A stretch of 22,140 nucleotides of DNA from a virus. Both the position numbers and the translations under genes were made by a program. The notes under the pieces are model-generated. The model made no database searches and had not been told where the DNA came from. It was given only the letters and a program-made list of their open reading frames with translations. Where the stretch lies: the IMG/VR virus record IMGVR_UViG_3300037838_000076, positions 1 to 22,140 of that record; one strand, 5' to 3'. This document shows, in pieces, positions 1,874 to 21,270 of this stretch. Each line of letters begins with the position of its first letter. The stretch's first letter is position 1.

Positions 1874-2205
1874 TTGTACATCCTTTCAAATTTTTCTGTT
1901 ATCTCTGTTCTACGTCCTCCCTGTGCTTCGAACTCGCTTATGAATTGATCTATTAGATTGGCGGCCCGTCTTCTGTACTCTGGCAATGCGTCTGCTTGTA
2001 ATTTTTGCACAGAACTTTGTGGCACGATCTCAACTATTGTGCCTATGGGCATTGAATCAATCCAACTTCCTGCCTTGCACATGTCATTCTGTATTTTGTG
2101 CAGTTCTGATGTAGGGTTGAATGTAGGCATCATCCTACGTGATTCGTCTACTAGGATACACATCAGTGTTCCAAAATAATCTTCTTTGTATATTTCTTTT
2201 TGCAT
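1861..2205 (-). CDS. Hypothetical protein, 114 aa
   Basis: No recognised family. The sequence is soluble and mixed alpha/beta, with a helical, Arg/Glu-rich C-terminal third. The start codon shares one base with the TAA of the subtilase gene (TAATG), so translation is probably coupled to that gene. It overlaps the 64-aa gene downstream by 13 nt. The neighbouring small genes could form a set with it, but nothing visible links them functionally to the protease. Confidence 0.72.
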   Translation of the reverse strand: MQKEIYKEDYFGTLMCILVDESRRMMPTFNPTSELHKIQNDMCKAGSWIDSMPIGTIVEIVPQSSVQKLQADALPEYRRRAANLIDQFISEFEAQGGRRTEITEKFERMYKWKQ

Positions 2206-5200
2206 TATTTCTTAATTGGTACAAATTTATCTGTCTTGAGATCGTAAACCAAACCATGTTTTGTGTTATTGTCCACGGTCTTGCCAAACAAGTCTGCCTT
2301 CATGTTGCCATCCTTGTCAAAACACTTGGGGTTCTTCATCCATAAAAACTTACAACTGCCTGCGAACTTCTTGACGAAGTTCATCCCTACTTCAACACCG
2401 TCGTTGTTGGCTACACCGGACTTGTCCATTCTGTATTCTGCTGTGAAGTTCACACTGGCGTCTAGATCATCCGCTCCTGACTTGTTGTAGTAGAAGCCTA
2501 TGTTCTTCTCTTTTGTGCCCTGTGTGAGATTGCTGTTTATGTCCGTGTAGTTTATCGTTCCATCTAGATTAACGCTTTCGGCTACCTCCAAATCCATCGT
2601 TCCCGATGTTATGTGACTTGGAAGTGAGAACGACCAACCGAAAGTTGTGTGCGTATCTTTGTGTATTTCATACGCCAACCTGTAAGATTCTGTCTCTATG
2701 TCTGAGAATGATTTGATCAGACTGTTGTCTGTTGTGTTAACATCAGTGAAACCTTTAGAGTAATCTAGTGTCAACACGTTGTTGCCCAACTGGTACGCAA
2801 CACCAATGTTTGCCGATGTCGTGTCATTGTTGTCACCTACAGCCAACACACCATCTGAACTGTTGCCCAGCCATGTGTCCTGTTCACTCATGTGTCCCAG
2901 TGATGTTTTCAGTTTGAATTTGTTATTGAAGTAGAAGTCTTTTCCTACGTTTAATGAATAATCTCCTGAACCATTTTCACTTGTGTAAAAACCAAAATTG
3001 TAGTTTTTAGCAAGATCATAATGACCGCCTTGTGCGAAACTGCCGTACATCTGTTGATGTGGTAGGAATGTGTTCTTGTTGTCCACCAGCATCTCAACGT
3101 CAGAATATTTCCTATTATCTTTTACTGTGAAACTTGATCCCAGGTCCATGTAATAGTTCCTGTCGTAGTCGTCAAGCACCATTATCTTCAAGTTTAGTAG
3201 GCTTGATGGTGCCGCTGTACCTGTGGAATAATATGTGTTGTTCAAACTTACAGTAGGATGATCTACTCTGCCTGATGTTGCCAATCCAACTGCACCCTGT
3301 GGTTTGGTTGCTTCGTTAAGATCCAACATACCCTGACCGTGTACGTTCACGTTGTAGTCATTGCCGAACATATTCTTGTCCGCTGTGTTCATCACAAGTT
3401 TCACAAGGTTATCACCTGCCATGTAAGGCCACATCTGATTCAACACACCAAATGCACCCGTCACGTGTGGGGCCGCCATACTTGTCCCAGAGCCATTGTT
3501 GTAAGCACCATTTGGCGTGGCCGCCATAATGTTGTGTCCAGGTGCCAATATGTAGAAGTCTGAAATTCTGTGAGTGTCGTTACAGGTATTGTTGCTGGTG
3601 TTAATTTTTAGGCAAACATGTCCGGCCTTGTTGCCTTCAACTTCAGTACCGTTCCAGTTACCAACTACGACCATCTTGCCACCCAATATAAGATTTCCGT
3701 TGCTGTCTTCCTCTACTGCCCATATGCCAGGATCACCTGCGTGTGCATATCCTGAATTACCTGCAGAGTTCACTAGTATGATGTCACTATCTGTTGCAAC
3801 TTTCCAGTAACTCGAATCTCCTTGTCCATTGTTTCCAGCCATCTTTTCGACCAATTCACTTGCTTTGTATGTGCCGTCATTCAATTGTGTTACTGTACTG
3901 GTCCATTGATTCCGTGTGTTAGGATCGTTATCGTGATCTGTGTAGTCTTTGAAATATGCACTGTTGTTGAAACTCATGTTCACGGCCACGATGTTCATGC
4001 CTTCTCCACCATTTGATTCAGCAGACTTGAGCTTTGCAAAATCGTGCAAGGCCAACTGTGCTTGGTTGATACTTATTCTTGCGTTACTGTGCCTGTCTAT
4101 GTTGGCACCGACCAGTTTGGCATCAAAGGCTACCCCGTGCGTGTTGTTATTCTTGACTAATGTGTACTCCGTGACAGGACTACCATTCACCCATTTTTGG
4201 GTGGATGTATAATCTCCTGTGGTTAATCTGCCATTGGCATCGTAGGAGTCTCCGGTTTTTTTACCTGCAATGATGCTGGCCACGTGTGTGCCGTGCCATT
4301 GTCTTTCTACAACTGTTCCGTTGTATGGGTTATAATTTTTATAGTAAAGGTATTTGCCATCCAGGTTCTCATGATCAGTGTCCTGCCAAGTGTCGAGTAC
4401 TCCAAGCACTGCACCTTTACCTGTCCAACCCCTCGCATAGGCATCCGCGGCGTTTATCGTATTGAGACCGTGATTGCTATTGTATTCTGTTGTCTTGTGA
4501 TCTGCGACAGTTGTACTCATGTTAGCGGTCACTGTACCTAGGTTGATGTCTTCGTCAGTGTAGGCATTGGAAACAAGTTGTGTGCTTATCTGTGTGCCAG
4601 AATCACTTGTTGTTACAACTCGATCGGCAGTTGATTCACTCTGTAATATATTTTCAGATCTAGTAGATTGGCTTAACTGTGTAGTAGACCAGTCTCCTGT
4701 AACGACGATTGCCGAACCGTTTACTATTTCGGTAGTACCGTCTTTGTATGTCAGTTGTTGTCTAGGAGTTGTGGTTGTCACTGTCCTAGAATCTTTCTTG
4801 ACTGCGTCTGTGTAGTTTCTAGTTCTATAAACTTTTGTTGTGATCGGTGTGGTAACGACTGTATCAACATATCTTACGACTGTCACGGTGGCTGTGTTGT
4901 CTCCGTGGTCTGTGGTCGTCGTCACGTCTCTGTTTGCAGTGTTCGTGGTTGCACTACCTTCCTGTGTTTCTGTTGATGTGTCTGTTGCGTCTGTGTGTGT
5001 TGTTTCTGTGTAGTTTGCCGAATTTTCAGTTACTGCAACAACAGTTGGATCAAGATTTGTTGTTGCCGTTACAGGATTATCGCCTGCCCTAGTTTCTGTG
5101 ACTTCTACAACAGTTGGATCTAGATCTGCGGTTGTGGTGTTAAGCACTGAGCAAGTCTGTGCACCGTTTGATGTTGTATTGTTCAAAAATGTTGTTCTTA

Positions 5201-5948
5201 CGAATGAACATCTAGTTGTTACCGTTGTTCTGATATTTGTGGTTGTAGTTGTTTTTGTTCTAGTTTCATCACCACCTCCTGCGTGTACAGTAGTCCAGTC
5301 CGTGAAACTCACACTTGACGTGCCTGTTGCGTCTGACGTTTCATCGTTGTCATTATTGATCGTCTGTACTGTTTTAATTTTTTTAGTATTTGCATACTCA
5401 CTTGAAGTAGAATTTTTCTCTTGTTCGATAATTTCATTTGCCCTAGTTTCTTTATCTACAAGGTTGTAATCTGCTAGGGTAATAGTTTGTCCATTAGCAA
5501 CTTTTTGTATCACAGGCTTAACATAATTCTGTAGGTAAAGCATGGCCGCATGTGCCTGTTTGAATGAGTCTGAGTTATAAACATGGTATTTCTCTGCATC
5601 AGTTTGATTGCTAATCAGTTCTTCGGTCTGATCCCATAAACTTTTTGCTGTTTGTAATTGTGTAAGAAGTGTGTTGGCTTGATCGATATCTCCCTGGTCG
5701 GGACCTGTGATCACACCCTGTATAGCACTTATGTCACCGCTTGATATGGCGAATTGAAAATCAGATAAAAGAGCACTGTAAGAACTAACCAAACTTGCTG
5801 ACCCAGATAAGTTCGATAGATCTTCGTTGATAAAATTGCCAACATCTCCAACTGCCCCACCACTGCCACCACCGCCACCACAGGCAGTAAGTGAAATACC
5901 AGCCAGACCGGCCAGTACTGTGTTCTTTAATTTGCTCCTAAGTTTCAT
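2205..5948 (-). CDS. Large subtilisin-like (S8) serine protease, predicted lipoprotein
   Basis: 1247 aa. Residues 1-23 form a lipoprotein signal peptide (basic start, hydrophobic core, LTAC with Cys23), followed by a Gly-rich linker. Residues about 40-180 look helical. Residues about 219-480 are very Thr-rich, with two copies of LDPTVVxVTE. The S8 domain spans about 495-850, with Asp519 (GVLDT), His552 (HGTHVAS), oxyanion Asn731 (NSAGN) and Ser823 (GTSMAAPH), so the catalytic set is complete. The last about 390 residues resemble an autotransporter barrel (alternating aromatic strands) but end in Lys-Lys instead of the usual aromatic residue, so export by that route is uncertain. It would act at the cell envelope or surface. 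A GGGGG ribosome site precedes the start, which overlaps the upstream 60-aa gene by 4 nt. Such a protease is unusual in a phage, and its target is unknown. Confidence 0.9.
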   Translation of the reverse strand: MKLRSKLKNTVLAGLAGISLTACGGGGGSGGAVGDVGNFINEDLSNLSGSASLVSSYSALLSDFQFAISSGDISAIQGVITGPDQGDIDQANTLLTQLQTAKSLWDQTEELISNQTDAEKYHVYNSDSFKQAHAAMLYLQNYVKPVIQKVANGQTITLADYNLVDKETRANEIIEQEKNSTSSEYANTKKIKTVQTINNDNDETSDATGTSSVSFTDWTTVHAGGGDETRTKTTTTTNIRTTVTTRCSFVRTTFLNNTTSNGAQTCSVLNTTTADLDPTVVEVTETRAGDNPVTATTNLDPTVVAVTENSANYTETTHTDATDTSTETQEGSATTNTANRDVTTTTDHGDNTATVTVVRYVDTVVTTPITTKVYRTRNYTDAVKKDSRTVTTTTPRQQLTYKDGTTEIVNGSAIVVTGDWSTTQLSQSTRSENILQSESTADRVVTTSDSGTQISTQLVSNAYTDEDINLGTVTANMSTTVADHKTTEYNSNHGLNTINAADAYARGWTGKGAVLGVLDTWQDTDHENLDGKYLYYKNYNPYNGTVVERQWHGTHVASIIAGKKTGDSYDANGRLTTGDYTSTQKWVNGSPVTEYTLVKNNNTHGVAFDAKLVGANIDRHSNARISINQAQLALHDFAKLKSAESNGGEGMNIVAVNMSFNNSAYFKDYTDHDNDPNTRNQWTSTVTQLNDGTYKASELVEKMAGNNGQGDSSYWKVATDSDIILVNSAGNSGYAHAGDPGIWAVEEDSNGNLILGGKMVVVGNWNGTEVEGNKAGHVCLKINTSNNTCNDTHRISDFYILAPGHNIMAATPNGAYNNGSGTSMAAPHVTGAFGVLNQMWPYMAGDNLVKLVMNTADKNMFGNDYNVNVHGQGMLDLNEATKPQGAVGLATSGRVDHPTVSLNNTYYSTGTAAPSSLLNLKIMVLDDYDRNYYMDLGSSFTVKDNRKYSDVEMLVDNKNTFLPHQQMYGSFAQGGHYDLAKNYNFGFYTSENGSGDYSLNVGKDFYFNNKFKLKTSLGHMSEQDTWLGNSSDGVLAVGDNNDTTSANIGVAYQLGNNVLTLDYSKGFTDVNTTDNSLIKSFSDIETESYRLAYEIHKDTHTTFGWSFSLPSHITSGTMDLEVAESVNLDGTINYTDINSNLTQGTKEKNIGFYYNKSGADDLDASVNFTAEYRMDKSGVANNDGVEVGMNFVKKFAGSCKFLWMKNPKCFDKDGNMKADLFGKTVDNNTKHGLVYDLKTDKFVPIKK

Positions 5949-6127
5949 AATATTGCCCCCATCAAAGTGGCACCTATCAAAAATGATAGGATGTATCTTG
6001 TGTATAATGAAAAGGGTTTGGCAATCTTGTAACCATTCTCCCTAAGGCAAATCACGTGTGCATCTATTGATTCAGCCGTGATATTCACATCAACTGTGTT
6101 GATCTGTTCTAAGTCTTTATCGTTCAT
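5945..6127 (-). CDS. Small tail-anchored membrane protein, 60 aa
   Basis: A short polar N-terminal part (about residues 1-42) is followed by one hydrophobic segment (YILSFLIGATLMGAIL, 45-60) that runs to the C-terminus, as in tail-anchored proteins. No family is recognised. It ends in an ATGA overlap with the subtilase gene, so the two are probably translated together, and a strong sigma70-like promoter stands directly before it. It may help the protease at the membrane or simply couple its translation. The -10 box ends 6 nt before the ATG and no ribosome site is visible. Confidence 0.72.
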   Translation of the reverse strand: MNDKDLEQINTVDVNITAESIDAHVICLRENGYKIAKPFSLYTRYILSFLIGATLMGAIL

Positions 6128-6133
6128 GTTATT

Positions 6134-6161
6134 AGTATAACACGTAACTGAAATGTGTCAA
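6134..6161 (-). promoter_or_regulatory. Sigma70-like (early) promoter of the 60-aa/subtilase operon
   Basis: TTGACA (6156-6161) and TATACT (6134-6139) on the minus strand are 16 nt apart. TGT directly before the -10 box makes an extended -10. The ATG at 6127 lies 6 nt beyond the -10 box, so the message should start at or beside the start codon. The -35 box overlaps a 14-bp palindrome. Confidence 0.7.
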
Positions 6162-6171
6162 CTCGAGTTGA
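6158..6171. promoter_or_regulatory. 14-bp perfect palindrome, candidate operator
   Basis: TCAACTCGAGTTGA is a perfect inverted repeat that covers four bases of the -35 box of the promoter at 6134-6161. That is where a dimeric repressor could block RNA polymerase. It is not followed by a T-run on either strand, which argues against a terminator. I have not seen a second copy elsewhere in the window. Confidence 0.4.
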
Positions 6172-6202
6172 TCTTAAAAAAACCTAGTGTTTATGCGACT
6201 TT

Positions 6203-6778
6203 TTATGAATTAATTAAAACAGAACTAATGGTTCCTGCTGTGACTGATGTGGCTTTTGCTCTTACCCAAACAAAATTTCCTGTGAAATTGGCAGTCGAAA
6301 TTAAGGTACTTTGGTCAGCAGTGAATGTCGATCCAGACACATCAAACCAATCATCCTCGGTCGGAGTTGTTGCGAGTGAACCCTGTATCTTGATTGAACC
6401 TGTCATTGTGCTATTCACTTGGTATGCCACAGTGTGTACACCGTCTGGTTGAGAGTAGTATCCATCACCCTTTTCTTTGTCACTGACGAAACCTGTGTGA
6501 TCTAACGTGGTAGTTGACGAACCGTCTGATGTTTCTGTTGTCACTACTTCTTCCACAATTAATTCATTGGCAGAAGTTTCTGTTTTGACGGTGAACGTTG
6601 CATTGTTGCTAGTAGTACCTGTCACAGTTATTAAGTCTCTAACGGCAAAACCGGCCAAACTTGTGGTAGTTGATGTGATCTTGTACTCTGATCCCGTTGC
6701 AGTGAAACTGATGTCCGTGCCTGATACATTCGCTATGTGCGATTTAGATGCTAGTAGTGTAGTGCTTGTCTGTGCCAT
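6203..6778 (-). CDS. Probable virion-associated (tail fibre/decoration-like) protein, 191 aa
   Basis: A Thr/Ser-rich, beta-rich protein without membrane segments. The C-terminal part (about residues 105-191), with DGVHTVAYQV, IQGSLATTPTEDDWFDVSG and FVWVRAKATSVTAGTI in order, resembles a beta-sandwich domain that I associate with structural or fibre proteins of marine T4-like phages. This is recalled, not computed. The gene stands alone between two operons and has a late-promoter-like box 6 nt before its ATG, which fits a virion protein expressed late. Its place in the particle cannot be told from the sequence. Confidence 0.6.
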   Translation of the reverse strand: MAQTSTTLLASKSHIANVSGTDISFTATGSEYKITSTTTSLAGFAVRDLITVTGTTSNNATFTVKTETSANELIVEEVVTTETSDGSSTTTLDHTGFVSDKEKGDGYYSQPDGVHTVAYQVNSTMTGSIKIQGSLATTPTEDDWFDVSGSTFTADQSTLISTANFTGNFVWVRAKATSVTAGTISSVLINS

Positions 6779-6784
6779 CGTTGT

Positions 6785-6792
6785 TATTTATT
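6785..6792 (-). promoter_or_regulatory. T4-type late promoter box AATAAATA
   Basis: The minus-strand box ends 6 nt before the ATG at 6778 and contains the TAA stop (6788-6790) of the preceding 98-aa gene. No ribosome site lies between box and start. Confidence 0.58.
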
Positions 6793-7084
6793 CAGTATTT
6801 TTCCTTTTGAATCTTGCTGTTTTTGGACCAAGTCCGTACACAGCGGCCAGTTCGTTTGGTTCCTGTCCGTCAACTGTCAGTATGTTTATGTACTTGATCT
6901 TGTACGCTTTGCCATCCGCTTCTCCTAGTTCCTCACACACGCAATCATTTTCTCTGACTTTCCTCACTCTCAACAGGCTCCTCTTTATCACAGGAGAGCC
7001 CATCCAGTTCTTCTCGATCATGCTCTCAACGATGCTCTGATCATTGAATATGTTCTTATCTCGTAGTTTTTTTATTGCTTCCAT
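6788..7084 (-). CDS. Hypothetical protein, 98 aa
   Basis: A small basic soluble protein with no recognised family. The end (ELAAVYGLGPKTARFKRKNTE in order) has a short Gly-Pro-Lys turn reminiscent of helix-hairpin-helix DNA-binding motifs, but the match is too short to claim a function. It overlaps the 213-aa gene by 29 nt and is the last gene of the dnaJ-clpA operon. The start has an AAAGG ribosome site 6 nt upstream. Confidence 0.72.
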   Translation of the reverse strand: MEAIKKLRDKNIFNDQSIVESMIEKNWMGSPVIKRSLLRVRKVRENDCVCEELGEADGKAYKIKYINILTVDGQEPNELAAVYGLGPKTARFKRKNTE

Positions 7085-7697
7085 TTTTTACCTTTCTAAA
7101 TTGAATTACTTTTTCTATGGCCTGCTGTGCCAACATGTATATAGGTGTTAGGTACTTCTCTTCCTTGACATAGAAGTAACCACCAAAGCAGTATGGGGAC
7201 TTGTCTTCCAGGAAGTCTATTATGTTGTAGTTTGTGACCAAACAGTTGTCAACATTCCTCTCAAGGAATTCCCATAGGTTCTTTTTCTGTGTATCTGTCA
7301 TTAGCACTTGTGAATCCTTTCTCAAGTACACCTGGTATTGGTATTTGCCGTGAGGCAGTCTAGTACAGCCCACAGTGTCCTTGCCCAGGCTTTTGAACCT
7401 TGGATCAACTGTCTCAGAACCGATCCAGAAATCCCAAAAACGTTCTATCAGCTCTTGAGACTTGTCTAGGTTCGAATAGAATATGGTCTTCCTGTCCTGC
7501 ATACGGAACTTGACGTTCCTCCTGTTGGCCATTATGAAACTGGCAAGATGGTTCATATCAGGCAGGTCCTTATAATCATTTTTAATTTTCAAAAGATGCT
7601 CGTCCGTTGTGGGATAGAACATCAAACTACCCGGCATCAGAAATTCGGTCTTGTGACGGAACTTTCCGTAGTACAACTTATTGTGATGCTTTCTCAT
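7056..7697 (-). CDS. Hypothetical protein, 213 aa
   Basis: No recognised family. It is a soluble mixed alpha/beta protein rich in aromatic residues (FWDFWIG, CFGGYFYV), with a basic N-terminus (MRKHHNKLYYGKFRHK) and a basic C-terminal tail (KVKNGSNKKTTR). It overlaps the end of the clpA gene by 20 nt and the 98-aa gene by 29 nt, so it is translated as part of the chaperone/protease operon. It could be an adaptor or substrate of the ClpA-like unfoldase by position, but nothing in the sequence shows this. Confidence 0.72.
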   Translation of the reverse strand: MRKHHNKLYYGKFRHKTEFLMPGSLMFYPTTDEHLLKIKNDYKDLPDMNHLASFIMANRRNVKFRMQDRKTIFYSNLDKSQELIERFWDFWIGSETVDPRFKSLGKDTVGCTRLPHGKYQYQVYLRKDSQVLMTDTQKKNLWEFLERNVDNCLVTNYNIIDFLEDKSPYCFGGYFYVKEEKYLTPIYMLAQQAIEKVIQFRKVKNGSNKKTTR

Positions 7698-13774: not shown

Positions 13775-14464
13775 TTACCAAAATTTAAGTTTCTTGGCAC
13801 CTTTTTTAATTGCTTTACCGGTCTTCTTGGCTGTGTTGTTCACTGCCGTGGCTGTGTGTGTGACTGCCGCCGCAACTGGTTTCGTGACTGCGACCACTGC
13901 CTTCTTTGCCGGTCTTGTGTCAACTGTGATGCTGGGTTGTAGTGTGATACCAACACCAAGTGCTAGTTTAACATCTGCACCCACTGTCAGTTTGCCGTCT
14001 TCCACTGTTGCACCGCCGCCCACTTTTGCACCGATCTGTGGACCAACTGAAACTTTTGCACCAATTCCTGCATTGTTTCTTTCGCCACCAACCGTGGTAC
14101 TTGCTCCCACTTCAGCACATGAACCTGCTATGGCTCCTGCTTCACCTTTGGCACCGTTGGTTCCTATCTGACCTGAAACTCCCACGTCTGAATAAACTTT
14201 TGTTCCTGCGTGTGCTTCTGATTTGACTCCAACTCCACCGACCTTGGTTTCATTCTCTACGTTTGAGTATGCTCCCACTTCTGCGTGAGCACCTACACTG
14301 GCACTTGCGTTGCCTTTTTTTGCTTTTGCTACTGCACCTGCTTCTGTTTCTGCGTATGCACCTGCGTTGGCTGTTGTGCCTTTACCTAGGTTCTTTGATG
14401 TGTCTGCGTTTGCTCCAGCCTTGGCTGAGCTCTTTGTTGTCTTTGCTTTTGCTTCTGTTGCCAT
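13775..14464 (-). CDS. Ala/Gly-rich low-complexity protein with basic tail, 229 aa
   Basis: No recognised family. Residues about 10-170 consist almost only of Ala, Gly, Ser, Val, Thr, Asn, Glu and Lys, with small residues alternating with polar ones (VGAHAEVGAYS, AKGEAGAIAGSCAEVGAS), a pattern that suggests stacked short beta-strands or an extended repetitive fold. The last about 40 residues are a Lys/Ala/Val-rich amphipathic stretch ending KKTGKAIKKGAKKLKFW, which could bind membrane or nucleic acid. It is co-transcribed with the spanins; its ATG shares a base with the o-spanin stop (TAATG), and GGAGAAAG lies before it. Function unknown. Confidence 0.72.
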   Translation of the reverse strand: MATEAKAKTTKSSAKAGANADTSKNLGKGTTANAGAYAETEAGAVAKAKKGNASASVGAHAEVGAYSNVENETKVGGVGVKSEAHAGTKVYSDVGVSGQIGTNGAKGEAGAIAGSCAEVGASTTVGGERNNAGIGAKVSVGPQIGAKVGGGATVEDGKLTVGADVKLALGVGITLQPSITVDTRPAKKAVVAVTKPVAAAVTHTATAVNNTAKKTGKAIKKGAKKLKFW

Positions 14465-14826
14465 TACTCTTTCTCCTTTGGTTCGTAGTATTTTTTATAT
14501 TCTTCCAAGAGGTTGTTGGTCTCTTGCAGTTTCTGTCTGATCTGTGCAAAGTTCCTTGCCAGCACTTGGTAGTCCTTGTCTGTCAGTCCGAACAGCACAG
14601 GATCTATGCCTGCCTCTTCCAGTTTCTTGAACACTTCCTGTGCGTTCTCACTTGTGATTATGATCCATTTTAATTCTTCCAGTTGTAGTGCTGTGGGCAT
14701 TGGATAGTCCAATTTCTGTCTTGGTTCTTCCACTGAGAATATCTTGATCTTCTTCTCACCACCGATACTACATCCTGTGAGTAGTATGATCATTGCCAGT
14801 GCAAATATTTTATTGATATGGTACAT
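14464..14826 (-). CDS. Outer-membrane lipoprotein, probable o-spanin
   Basis: 120 aa. It has a signal peptide and lipobox LLTGC with Cys19 at the cleavage site, followed by a helical, charged C-terminal part (about 60-120). It overlaps the 3' end of the preceding coiled-coil membrane protein by 17 nt. Overlapping genes for an N-anchored coiled-coil protein and a lipoprotein are the hallmark of Rz/Rz1-type spanin pairs, which fuse the inner and outer membranes in the last step of lysis of Gram-negative hosts. Spanins diverge strongly, so the call relies on topology and arrangement. Confidence 0.75.
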   Translation of the reverse strand: MYHINKIFALAMIILLTGCSIGGEKKIKIFSVEEPRQKLDYPMPTALQLEELKWIIITSENAQEVFKKLEEAGIDPVLFGLTDKDYQVLARNFAQIRQKLQETNNLLEEYKKYYEPKEKE

Positions 14827-15283
14827 AATTTGGGTTCGCCAGTGCTGGGCACTCTGGGTTGATTTCTGATTTCAATGTTGCTTTCAATTCTTCTGGTGTG
14901 TGTTCCGCACCTGATGCCAGTTCGATACATCTCGCGGCGTTCTTGCCACCTTTGTTTATGATCCTCTCAATGGCCCCTGTCCTGTCTATTGCCAGTTTGC
15001 CAATGTCTCTGTTCTTCTTTGTGAATCTTTTGTCCAAGTCTTCAAGGTCTTTTTTGAATGTGCCTATTAAAACATTTAATTTTTTGTTGCTTTCCAAGAT
15101 GGCAGTGAAGTCTTCCTTCTGCTGTTCCAACACCTTGTTCTGTTCAGTGATGGCACTCTCTAGTTTTGATTGATTTGCCTTCAGAGTGGCGTTGTCTGCC
15201 CTTAATTTCATGACATACATACCAGCACCTGCTATACCGGTTATCAGCATTATGGCTATAGCCATTTTTATCGTCGAAAACAT
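14810..15283 (-). CDS. Probable i-spanin (Rz-like)
   Basis: 157 aa. An N-terminal membrane anchor (about 6-26) is followed by a long coiled coil (about 28-95) and a globular C-terminal part with KNAARCIELASG. This is the topology of inner-membrane spanins, whose periplasmic helix meets the outer-membrane lipoprotein. The o-spanin gene overlaps its end. A late-promoter-like box ends 8 nt before the ATG with no ribosome site between, so lysis genes may start on a leaderless late message. The divergent plus-strand gene begins only 33 nt away. Confidence 0.75.
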   Translation of the reverse strand: MFSTIKMAIAIMLITGIAGAGMYVMKLRADNATLKANQSKLESAITEQNKVLEQQKEDFTAILESNKKLNVLIGTFKKDLEDLDKRFTKKNRDIGKLAIDRTGAIERIINKGGKNAARCIELASGAEHTPEELKATLKSEINPECPALANPNYVPYQ

Positions 15284-19531: not shown

Positions 19532-20053
19532 TTATTTTAAAAAGCCGCTGATTTGTAGTGTGTACTTGTCTTCCATGCCAGCATTGGCACCGATGTGTAA
19601 AACCTCACTGTCCCACATATGTCCACTGCCCTGTTTCCAGTGCGTGTCTACTTCATCATTGTACTGTAGGAAGTGTCCTGCCTTCCAGTCCTCGAGATAA
19701 ATGTTACATCGCACCACCGTTCTTGTGTTTTCGGGATACTGGGTTTTTATCTTGTAGAACGTGTCTCTGTGTAAGGGTATAACGTTACCCGGTGGTTGCA
19801 TGATAGTGCTGACCGTAACTGTTTCAATGCCTAACTTCTCCTCCAGTTCATCGTAATCGCATTCATCCTTGTCCCAGAACTTCTGGTGTATGGTTGTGTT
19901 GGCCAACCCGTAAGTCTGAGGGAAGCCACCTGGAAATTTCTCATGTATGTCCTTGAGCTCAACCACTTGGTGTGCGATACAAGTGCTACCTTTTGGTATT
20001 TCTTGTGATAGGAAATGTTTATAGTCTATATCTAGGTGAATTTTTCTATGCAT
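19532..20053 (-). CDS. Fe(II)/2-oxoglutarate oxygenase, Asp/Asn-hydroxylase-like
   Basis: 173 aa. The iron site reads His95-Arg96-Asp97 in NVIPLHRDTFYK and a distal His153 in SEVLHIGAN. A Gly-His-Phe-Leu-Gln segment (126-130) and WKQGSGHMWDSE precede the distal ligand as in the beta-hydroxylase-like oxygenases. The substrate is not evident; with its neighbours it may hydroxylate a small molecule or a surface sugar. It is the first gene of the enzyme operon. A sigma70-like promoter ends 10 nt before the ATG, and no ribosome site is visible, so the message may have a leader of only a few bases. Confidence 0.78.
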   Translation of the reverse strand: MHRKIHLDIDYKHFLSQEIPKGSTCIAHQVVELKDIHEKFPGGFPQTYGLANTTIHQKFWDKDECDYDELEEKLGIETVTVSTIMQPPGNVIPLHRDTFYKIKTQYPENTRTVVRCNIYLEDWKAGHFLQYNDEVDTHWKQGSGHMWDSEVLHIGANAGMEDKYTLQISGFLK

Positions 20054-20063
20054 ACTAGTAATT

Positions 20064-20092
20064 AGTTTACAAGATATTGTGATGGTTGTCTA
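20064..20092 (-). promoter_or_regulatory. Sigma70-like promoter of the enzyme operon
   Basis: Minus-strand TAGACA (20087-20092) and TAAACT (20064-20069) are 17 nt apart, and the ATG at 20053 is 10 nt beyond the -10 box. The -35 box shares three bases with the stop codon of the orphaned peptidase tail. Confidence 0.5.
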
Positions 20093-20185
20093 CTGGATAA
20101 GTTCGGACTCATAAACGGTTTTACCGTTTTCCTTCATGGCAGTCAGTGATTGCTTACGATTGCCCTCTGACTTGTATGAAACGTG
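20090..20185 (-). pseudogene. Orphaned 3' end of the M15 peptidase gene
   Basis: Read from the CAC at 20185 to the TAG at 20092-20090, this gives 31 residues beginning HVSYKSEGNRKQSLTA and ending NGKTVYESELIQ. The intact peptidase has HVSYVSEGNRKQVLTA at the same place, starting with its zinc ligand His123. There is no start codon in this frame and stop codons stand directly before the CAC. The two copies differ at most third codon positions, so this is a displaced, diverged native end and not a fresh duplication. Bases 20143-20185 are also the end of the endonuclease gene in another frame. Confidence 0.85.
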
Positions 20186-20796
20186 TTATTATGCCTCCAA
20201 AATGCATTCACTGTTGTTTCTTTTTTACAAGTTAAACAACTTAATCTATATTTTGGACCTGTTGATCTATGAGGTTTTCTCATTTTAATTTTTGTTTCTG
20301 TAGTATGTTGTTTTCCAAACATTGGGTTTCTTTGTCCTTTAGCAATTCCTAGAGTTTTTCTAATTTTGCTTATTAATTTTTTTGTTTGATCTGAATGTGT
20401 ACTGCCTAATCTTACTTTATTTCCTTTGTTTTTTAATCCTATTTTTAATTTTGTTTGTTCTGATAATTTGTGACCTTTTAATTTTATACTTTTTTTCTTA
20501 TTACATAGATCCCCTAAGTTTCCACCTTTTCCACCTAGTGCTATATTATAAGTATCTTTTCTTTTAATAAAATCCTCAGTAACTATTTCTGCTTCTTTTT
20601 TAAAACATTCAACAGGTGTTCCATAACACCACAATATTTCTTTTTTAAAACTGTTGATACCGTATTTTTTTATTGCTTTGTTTAATATTAATCCAGAACC
20701 AAAATATCCATCATCATGATGTTTACTGTTAGTTTTAACGCCAACATAAAATTTATTATTATTTAGATTAGTAGTTTTATAAACGTAATTTATCAT
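20143..20796 (-). CDS. GIY-YIG homing endonuclease with NUMOD3 repeats
   Basis: 217 aa. The N-terminal YVYKTTNLNNNKFYVGVKT (4-22) is the GIY-YIG motif (YVY...YVG). Residues about 105-170 hold NUMOD3-type DNA-binding repeats (GHKLSEQTKLKIG, GSTHSDQTKKLIS, GKQHTTETKIKM). The end has a Cys-x2-Cys...His...His cluster (from CLTC to His207), perhaps a zinc finger. It begins 3 nt after the M15 peptidase stop. Base composition is far more AT-rich than the rest of the window, a sign of transfer. The last 13 residues are read out of frame from the orphaned peptidase tail, so the gene end, including His207, derives from the target gene. Confidence 0.92.
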   Translation of the reverse strand: MINYVYKTTNLNNNKFYVGVKTNSKHHDDGYFGSGLILNKAIKKYGINSFKKEILWCYGTPVECFKKEAEIVTEDFIKRKDTYNIALGGKGGNLGDLCNKKKSIKLKGHKLSEQTKLKIGLKNKGNKVRLGSTHSDQTKKLISKIRKTLGIAKGQRNPMFGKQHTTETKIKMRKPHRSTGPKYRLSCLTCKKETTVNAFWRHNNTFHTSQRAIVSNH

Positions 20797-21020
20797 GCTC
20801 TATACATGACCAAGTCCTGCAAGATACACTGTTTTTCTAGTTGCCGGATCTCTTAATGCAGTTAGAACTTGTTTTCTATTGCCTTCACTGACATAACTTA
20901 CATGAACCCAGCCAGCATCAGGTATACCTTTTTCAGCAAACTCTAAAATTAATTGGTCGAATTCTAAATTATCAGCGATCCACTGAGCAACTGTTTCATT
21001 TGCCGTGCCTGGACATTCGA
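20186..21020 (-). mobile_element. Inserted unit: substitute M15 3' end plus homing endonuclease
   Basis: The endonuclease gene and roughly the last 75 codons of the intact peptidase share AT-rich codon use (TTA, ATT, AAT, AGA, GAT), unlike the first about 80 codons of the peptidase (more CAG, CTG, AAC, GTG, AGG). The left border at 20185/20186 is sharp because the orphaned tail starts there. The right border near 21020 is only an estimate from codon use. Confidence 0.6.
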
Positions 21021-21270
21021 TATCAACTGCTTCTCCTTTGCAGTGCTGTGAGTTGCTTGAACCACCCACCGCTTCGTTCAGTGCCGGTCCCCTGTATCCT
21101 GAGTTGATCACTGTGACACCAAAGTTGTCCCTGACCTTCTGTACCACGTTTGCGAATAATTCTTTTGCGTTTGCTAGGTGTTCTTCACCTGGGGTGTTGT
21201 CTAGGCCTTTTCTAGTCGCAGTTTGACTTTTTGTGAATTCTGCCAGTGTGAAGTTTGCACTCAATCTCAT
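20800..21270 (-). CDS. M15 zinc peptidase, probable endolysin, chimeric
   Basis: 156 aa. The zinc site of M15A carboxypeptidase-type enzymes is present: His76 and Asp83 in SQHCKGEAVD and His123 in GWVHVSY, with SGYRGPALNEAVGG (57-70) before them. Such phage enzymes cut peptidoglycan peptides and serve as endolysins; there is no signal peptide, so a holin would be needed. I chose the ATG at 21270, not 21285, because MRLSANFTLAEF is the usual opening and a late box stands 5 nt before it. The first about 80 codons look native, the rest AT-rich and apparently imported with the endonuclease next door, so the protein seems to be a working hybrid. Confidence 0.9.
   Translation of the reverse strand: MRLSANFTLAEFTKSQTATRKGLDNTPGEEHLANAKELFANVVQKVRDNFGVTVINSGYRGPALNEAVGGSSNSQHCKGEAVDIECPGTANETVAQWIADNLEFDQLILEFAEKGIPDAGWVHVSYVSEGNRKQVLTALRDPATRKTVYLAGLGHV

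Follow-up and report, generated by a model that had tools for sequence, protein, structure and literature searches.

A cassette consisting of a replacement 3′ part of an M15 peptidase gene and a GIY-YIG homing endonuclease gene has probably entered, by homing, the endolysin gene of a phage from the sea. At this locus a foreign gene end is linked to the endonuclease gene, the native end is stranded (or, in a second lineage, lost), the peptidase gene is restored and the exchange has been recent. All features lie on the minus strand of a stretch of 22,140 nucleotides, hereafter the window (IMG/VR record IMGVR_UViG_3300037838_000076, positions 1 to 22,140).

Layout of the locus

The peptidase gene (21270-20800, minus strand; 156 amino acids) is intact and belongs to the M15_3 family (Pfam PF08291, E = 1.5e-20). 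Its stop codon ends at 20800 and, after three bases, the endonuclease gene begins at 20796, a layout already given in a preliminary description of this DNA and upheld by the coordinates and Pfam matches. The endonuclease gene (20143-20796, minus strand; 217 amino acids) is free-standing, with its own start and stop, and the peptidase gene ahead of it is a whole host gene. Matches to SegE_GIY-YIG (PF19835, E = 4e-7, 30.7 bits versus a cut-off of 25) and, in two stretches, to NUMOD3 (PF07460, E = 3e-11, above the Pfam cut-off) make it, by domain content, a Seg-like GIY-YIG homing endonuclease for which site-specific cleavage is predicted. An AlphaFold model of the enzyme from three sequences had a pLDDT of 34.

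Behind the endonuclease gene lies an orphan sequence (20185-20090, minus strand) that translates as HVSYKSEGNRKQSLTAMKENGKTVYESELIQ followed by a stop. It spans 31 codons, has no start codon at its beginning and opens with the equivalent of the codon for zinc ligand His123, thus covering codon 123 to the stop. The preliminary description recognized it as a diverged, start-less second copy of the last 31 peptidase codons, and both tblastn against relatives and the phylogeny agree. The first 43 bases of the orphan (20143-20185, minus strand) double as the last codons of the endonuclease gene, read in another frame. The next gene (19532-20053, minus strand) is native and collinear with relatives that lack the endonuclease.

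Group I introns, inteins and bypass elements can carry GIY-YIG genes, and the native frame would be regained if the stretch ahead of codon 123 were removed, as for an intervening element of one of these kinds. However, the stretch is almost wholly coding, the upstream copy is a whole gene that ends in a stop codon of its own, and an intron would leave the foreign codons 90-122 (see below) unexplained. A search of the stretch for a ribozyme core with Rfam, down to E 5, returned one sub-threshold chance match and no intron family. With hardly any non-coding sequence in addition, a group I intron was rejected, and we regard any element of these three kinds as highly unlikely.

Two further features of the window concern other genes. 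A 1,247-amino-acid protein (2205-5948) has a subtilisin-like GTSMAAPH motif and a lipoprotein-like N terminus and is autotransporter-like, which is unusual in a phage. Two small overlapping genes (14464-14826 and 14810-15283), one for a membrane-anchored coiled coil and the other lipoprotein-like (LLTGC), resemble a spanin pair.

Native and foreign gene ends

The preliminary description proposed that the element donated a substitute C-terminal part and stranded the native end, and suggested an alignment with related phages that lack the endonuclease. In around 20 such close relatives the native 5′ part continues without interruption into a tail resembling the orphan, and the right junction corresponds to codon 123. 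The tails of the closest endonuclease-free relatives (L002-L024) match the orphan mostly at 77-94% amino acid identity (tblastn, E = 1e-11 to 3e-15). One of them, L002, is an empty site that is collinear on both flanks: reverse-strand positions 10-1269 and 1955-7658 of the window match adjoining L002 DNA, the latter running continuously with L002 6366-12063 (blastn). The endonuclease is therefore polymorphic for presence and absence at a single site among related phages, with L002 and others empty. Neither endonuclease-free phages that combine an orphan with ends like the intact copy, nor an orphan devoid of homology to M15 tails, the two contrary outcomes named beforehand, were seen.

The two parts of the peptidase gene have different affinities. 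The native 5′ part (21004-21270, minus strand; codons 1-89, including zinc ligands His76 and Asp83) is 88% identical to L002 at the nucleotide level, and its tree neighbours (codons 1-88) are the native relatives: the window groups with L002 and its kin, whereas L083, the only other endonuclease-bearing lineage, lies elsewhere, with L118 and L120 (support 100/97). The 3′ part (20800-21003, minus strand; codons 90-156 and the stop), which supplies Glu110, Trp121 and zinc ligand His123, is 55-61% identical to native relatives, is of a type seen only ahead of this endonuclease gene and has the L083 tail as its sister (100/99). The orphan groups with the tail of L005 (98/94). Approximately unbiased (AU) tests rejected forcing the window and L083 together in the 5′ part (P = 0.002) and forcing each carrier with its 5′ kin in the 3′ part (P = 0.002 and 0.03).

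Base composition follows the same division. Third-position GC content is 0.46 in the 5′ part, 0.52 in the orphan and 0.40-0.60 in neighbouring genes, versus 0.18 in the replacement tail and 0.14 in the endonuclease gene. Judged by empty sites, conflicting 5′ and 3′ trees and composition, the intact peptidase tail is the foreign one and the orphan is the native end, much as first proposed.

An endonuclease flanked by two tail copies might also arise by local duplication of the tail, insertion of the endonuclease gene between the copies and later divergence. Such copies would be sisters, whereas the intact tail groups with L083 and the orphan with native tails at the support given above, and the foreign sequence begins 34 codons ahead of the duplicated part. 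Barring error, the trees refute local duplication, and we give it a negligible probability. Similarly, the locus is known from metagenomic contigs only, as would be the case for an assembly chimera of two phages, but another metagenome contains the whole locus at 99.95% identity (L001) and a further one has the endonuclease-orphan junction on a backbone of around 87% identity (L068). Because the orphan recurs in both, it is not an assembly artefact, and a chimera is extremely improbable. This recurrence, the 77-94% identity to the native tails of relatives and the grouping with L005 also mean that the orphan is not a chance match.

The hybrid enzyme retains the residues expected of an M15 peptidase: H76, D83, E110, W121 and H123 are invariant across 21 homologues, the hybrid included. 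Its AlphaFold model has a pLDDT of 94.6 (around 87-98 in the foreign tail), and the nearest solved fold is the Streptomyces zinc DD-peptidase 1lbu (E = 1e-6). On the strength of the invariant residues, the confident model and the structural match, the hybrid peptidase is probably functional.

Junctions and crossovers

Identity between the window and L002 falls from 0.88 to 0.59 after the second base of codon 89, at the end of TGTCCAGGCAC (21005-21015, minus strand), a stretch common to the window and native relatives that marks the left crossover region. A breakpoint scan found this position against seven of eight relatives (0 of 2,000 permutations in each case); control pairs of native sequences gave much weaker breaks. 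The left crossover is thus 34 codons upstream of His123. The preliminary description had the element enter at the His123 codon, which holds for the right junction but not for the left, where native codons 90-122 were replaced too. Given this left breakpoint, those codons were lost or overwritten, not merely pushed aside, and codons 123-153 were stranded.

The L083 locus has a different backbone and a different left crossover. Its best breakpoint falls after codon 111 against two near relatives (L120 and L112) and is less exact, as other relatives place the break later, at codons 133-149. There the native tail is gone, there is no orphan and the cassette abuts the next gene with a clean right end. 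The L083 endonuclease homologue shares the residues WRH with that of the window and then ends differently. As the last codons of the window enzyme come from the orphan, the 3′ end that its gene once had has probably been lost or replaced at the right junction. The end taken from the orphan may complete a zinc-finger-like C..C..H motif.

A probable mobile unit

Tail and endonuclease were never found apart among 157 related peptidases of distinct sequence: 3 have the DAGW...GLGHV tail type, and this endonuclease gene lies behind the same three. Between the window and L068, synonymous changes number 1 in 118 sites in the endonuclease gene and 44 in 100 in the neighbouring gene (Fisher P = 5e-17); further genes have dS values of 0.5-1.5. 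The two orphans agree in all of their initial 57 bases, and the last 39 hold six differences. The divergence profile shows an exchange tract around the endonuclease gene, the least diverged segment, and this is the pattern that a recent transfer centred there would leave. The tail (7 of 45 synonymous changes) is more diverged than the endonuclease gene (P = 5e-4); the cassette was thus not transferred evenly over its full length in the last exchange. Taken as a unit, tail and endonuclease look mobile.

The window and L068 have one common right junction, which leaves just two clearly separate acquisitions, window/L068 and L083. Searches with an endonuclease profile, a tail profile and the exact right junction yielded no cassette copies beyond the known three, and a search for a donor genome with an entire peptidase gene of the cassette type found none. 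The L068 contig (L068:1-210) starts two codons ahead of the left junction, as would result from a break in the assembly at a cassette common to several strains. In L084, L085 and L256, additional GIY-YIG starts lie no more than around 1 kb from the endonuclease gene, which points to endonuclease genes in tandem or to remnants of them.

Phage lysis genes recombine, and ordinary recombination could have swapped the 3′ end of this one between phages, with the endonuclease gene as a passenger and not the cause. The simple replacement of the native tail in L083 would suit such a swap, and a role for cleavage is predicted from sequence. However, the tail type and the endonuclease are strictly linked across different backbones, the endonuclease gene is the least diverged segment between the window and L068, and the native tail is retained as a fragment that starts inside the gene, which is expected of insertion at a break but not of a swap. 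We therefore consider a passenger endonuclease unlikely, if still worth weighing, and favour homing of the cassette; the case described next also speaks against a passenger.

A mirror image in a cultured phage

At around 30 GIY-YIG loci we looked for a neighbouring gene present as partial copies on both flanks. Besides the element in the window, only Yersinia phage TG1 (NC_028820; L252:5480-7283) had a stranded gene end. On the upstream flank TG1 is 98% identical to phage phiR1-RT up to base 49-50 of gene 47, where the match ends; a GIY-YIG/NUMOD3 gene comes next and then a complete gene 47. Of 143 differences between TG1 and phiR1-RT in gene 47, 142 fall in the first 540 bases (around 74% identity), which are foreign, and the remainder is virtually identical. 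In the sister phages phiR1-RT and fHe-Yen9-01 the site is empty. By these alignments the TG1 locus, newly recognized here, combines an endonuclease gene, a substitute for the 5′ end of gene 47 and stranded native bases.

The TG1 endonuclease is only around 32% identical to that of the window. Different enzymes and different target genes have thus given rise to one layout, which speaks against a passenger endonuclease. Because TG1 is an isolate, the caveat attached to metagenomes is removed for the principle. TG1 and phiR1-RT form a cultured pair, 98-100% identical around the cassette, and the idea is thus open to direct test.

Proposed mechanism

We hypothesize that, in a mixed infection, the endonuclease would cut the uninterrupted peptidase gene of another phage at or near codon 123, the start of the future orphan. 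Homologous recombination with the genome that carries the cassette would then mend the left side of the break, and the position of the crossover within the homologous part would vary; the breakpoints themselves, at codon 89 in the window and near codon 111 in L083, are observed. Repair of this kind would install the donor 3′ part and so complete the peptidase again, with every M15 residue in place. The new end, being different in sequence, presumably does not contain the cutting site and would make the carrier immune. Finally, the right side of the cassette would be joined to the leftover 3′ end of the recipient at codon 123, producing the orphan, or, in L083, beside the following gene with loss of the native tail; both junctions are observed. 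This mechanism is supported by the recurrence of the same logic, mirrored, in TG1.

We put the chances at about even that a general class of end-replacing homing cassettes exists in phages, combining an endonuclease with a substitute 3′ end (window) or 5′ end (TG1 gene 47). The substitute end would serve as both repair patch and immunity determinant, and selfish endonucleases would repeatedly rebuild essential phage genes as hybrids. By bringing a spare gene end, a selfish gene could in this way occupy a phage gene with the help of neither an intron nor an intein. This also offers a concrete route to endonuclease-made hybrid phage genes, here a lysis enzyme (window) and a recombination nuclease (TG1).

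Comparison with known systems

The closest precedent is the WHO elements of yeasts, in which the 3′ end of FBA1 is replaced at each homing, a fragment is left behind and resistance is given; cleavage was shown experimentally (Coughlan et al. 2020, eLife, PMC7282813). In both systems the endonuclease gene follows a full-length hybrid host gene with a brought 3′ end, the native 3′ fragment is stranded behind the endonuclease, and the 5′ and 3′ trees of the host gene conflict. In the WHO model the new 3′ end is resistant to that enzyme, as we infer for the tail in the window. WHO proteins are intein-like, of the LAGLIDADG kind with zinc fingers, and reside in yeast nuclear genomes, whereas the window has a GIY-YIG/NUMOD3 enzyme in a phage lysis gene and no tandem clusters; cleavage by the window enzyme is a prediction from sequence. 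As the enzyme families differ, the window element is not a WHO element by descent but works like one.

Mobile open reading frames (mORFs) with a foreign carboxy-terminal part occur in fungal mitochondria, in atp6 of Allomyces and in atp6, atp9, cox2 and nad3 of Glomus (Beaudet et al. 2013, PMC3630166). The preliminary description had likened the locus to Allomyces atp6, and the order of parts is indeed the same: a native 5′ part is followed by a foreign 3′ part, by an endonuclease (of the GIY-YIG kind in atp9) and by what is left of the native C-terminal part; the yeast elements are nonetheless nearer. The mORF hosts are mitochondrial genes, their enzymes are mostly LAGLIDADG and some reading frames are fused in frame, whereas the host in the window is an M15 peptidase gene of a virus.

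Among phages, a review of T4 describes how the free-standing GIY-YIG genes of the Seg enzymes move by double-strand-break repair with co-conversion, and how free-standing endonuclease genes are intergenic and lie at distances of hundreds to thousands of bases from the cleavage sites (PMC2988022). Intronless homing of this type resembles the window in its free-standing GIY-YIG gene beside a conserved phage gene, with co-conversion of neighbouring sequence expected. The window cassette differs in sitting at the peptidase gene with a substitute end; searching the review by terms revealed no stranded or substitute gene end. In a phage ribonucleotide reductase gene, too, a homing endonuclease lies within a phage gene that remains functional, but that gene is split into two working pieces, whereas the peptidase is whole again through its substitute end. 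We take the endonuclease in question to be MobE of phage Aeh1. The splitting is cited in a 2023 survey of phage endonucleases (PMC10448857). Neither that survey, the T4 review nor a full-text search of mainly open-access literature contained a description of an end-replacing endonuclease in a phage, in line with the earlier remark that the arrangement was not known for a phage lysis gene. End replacement is known from yeast WHO elements and fungal mORFs; the phage case and its mirrored counterpart in TG1 are the new part.
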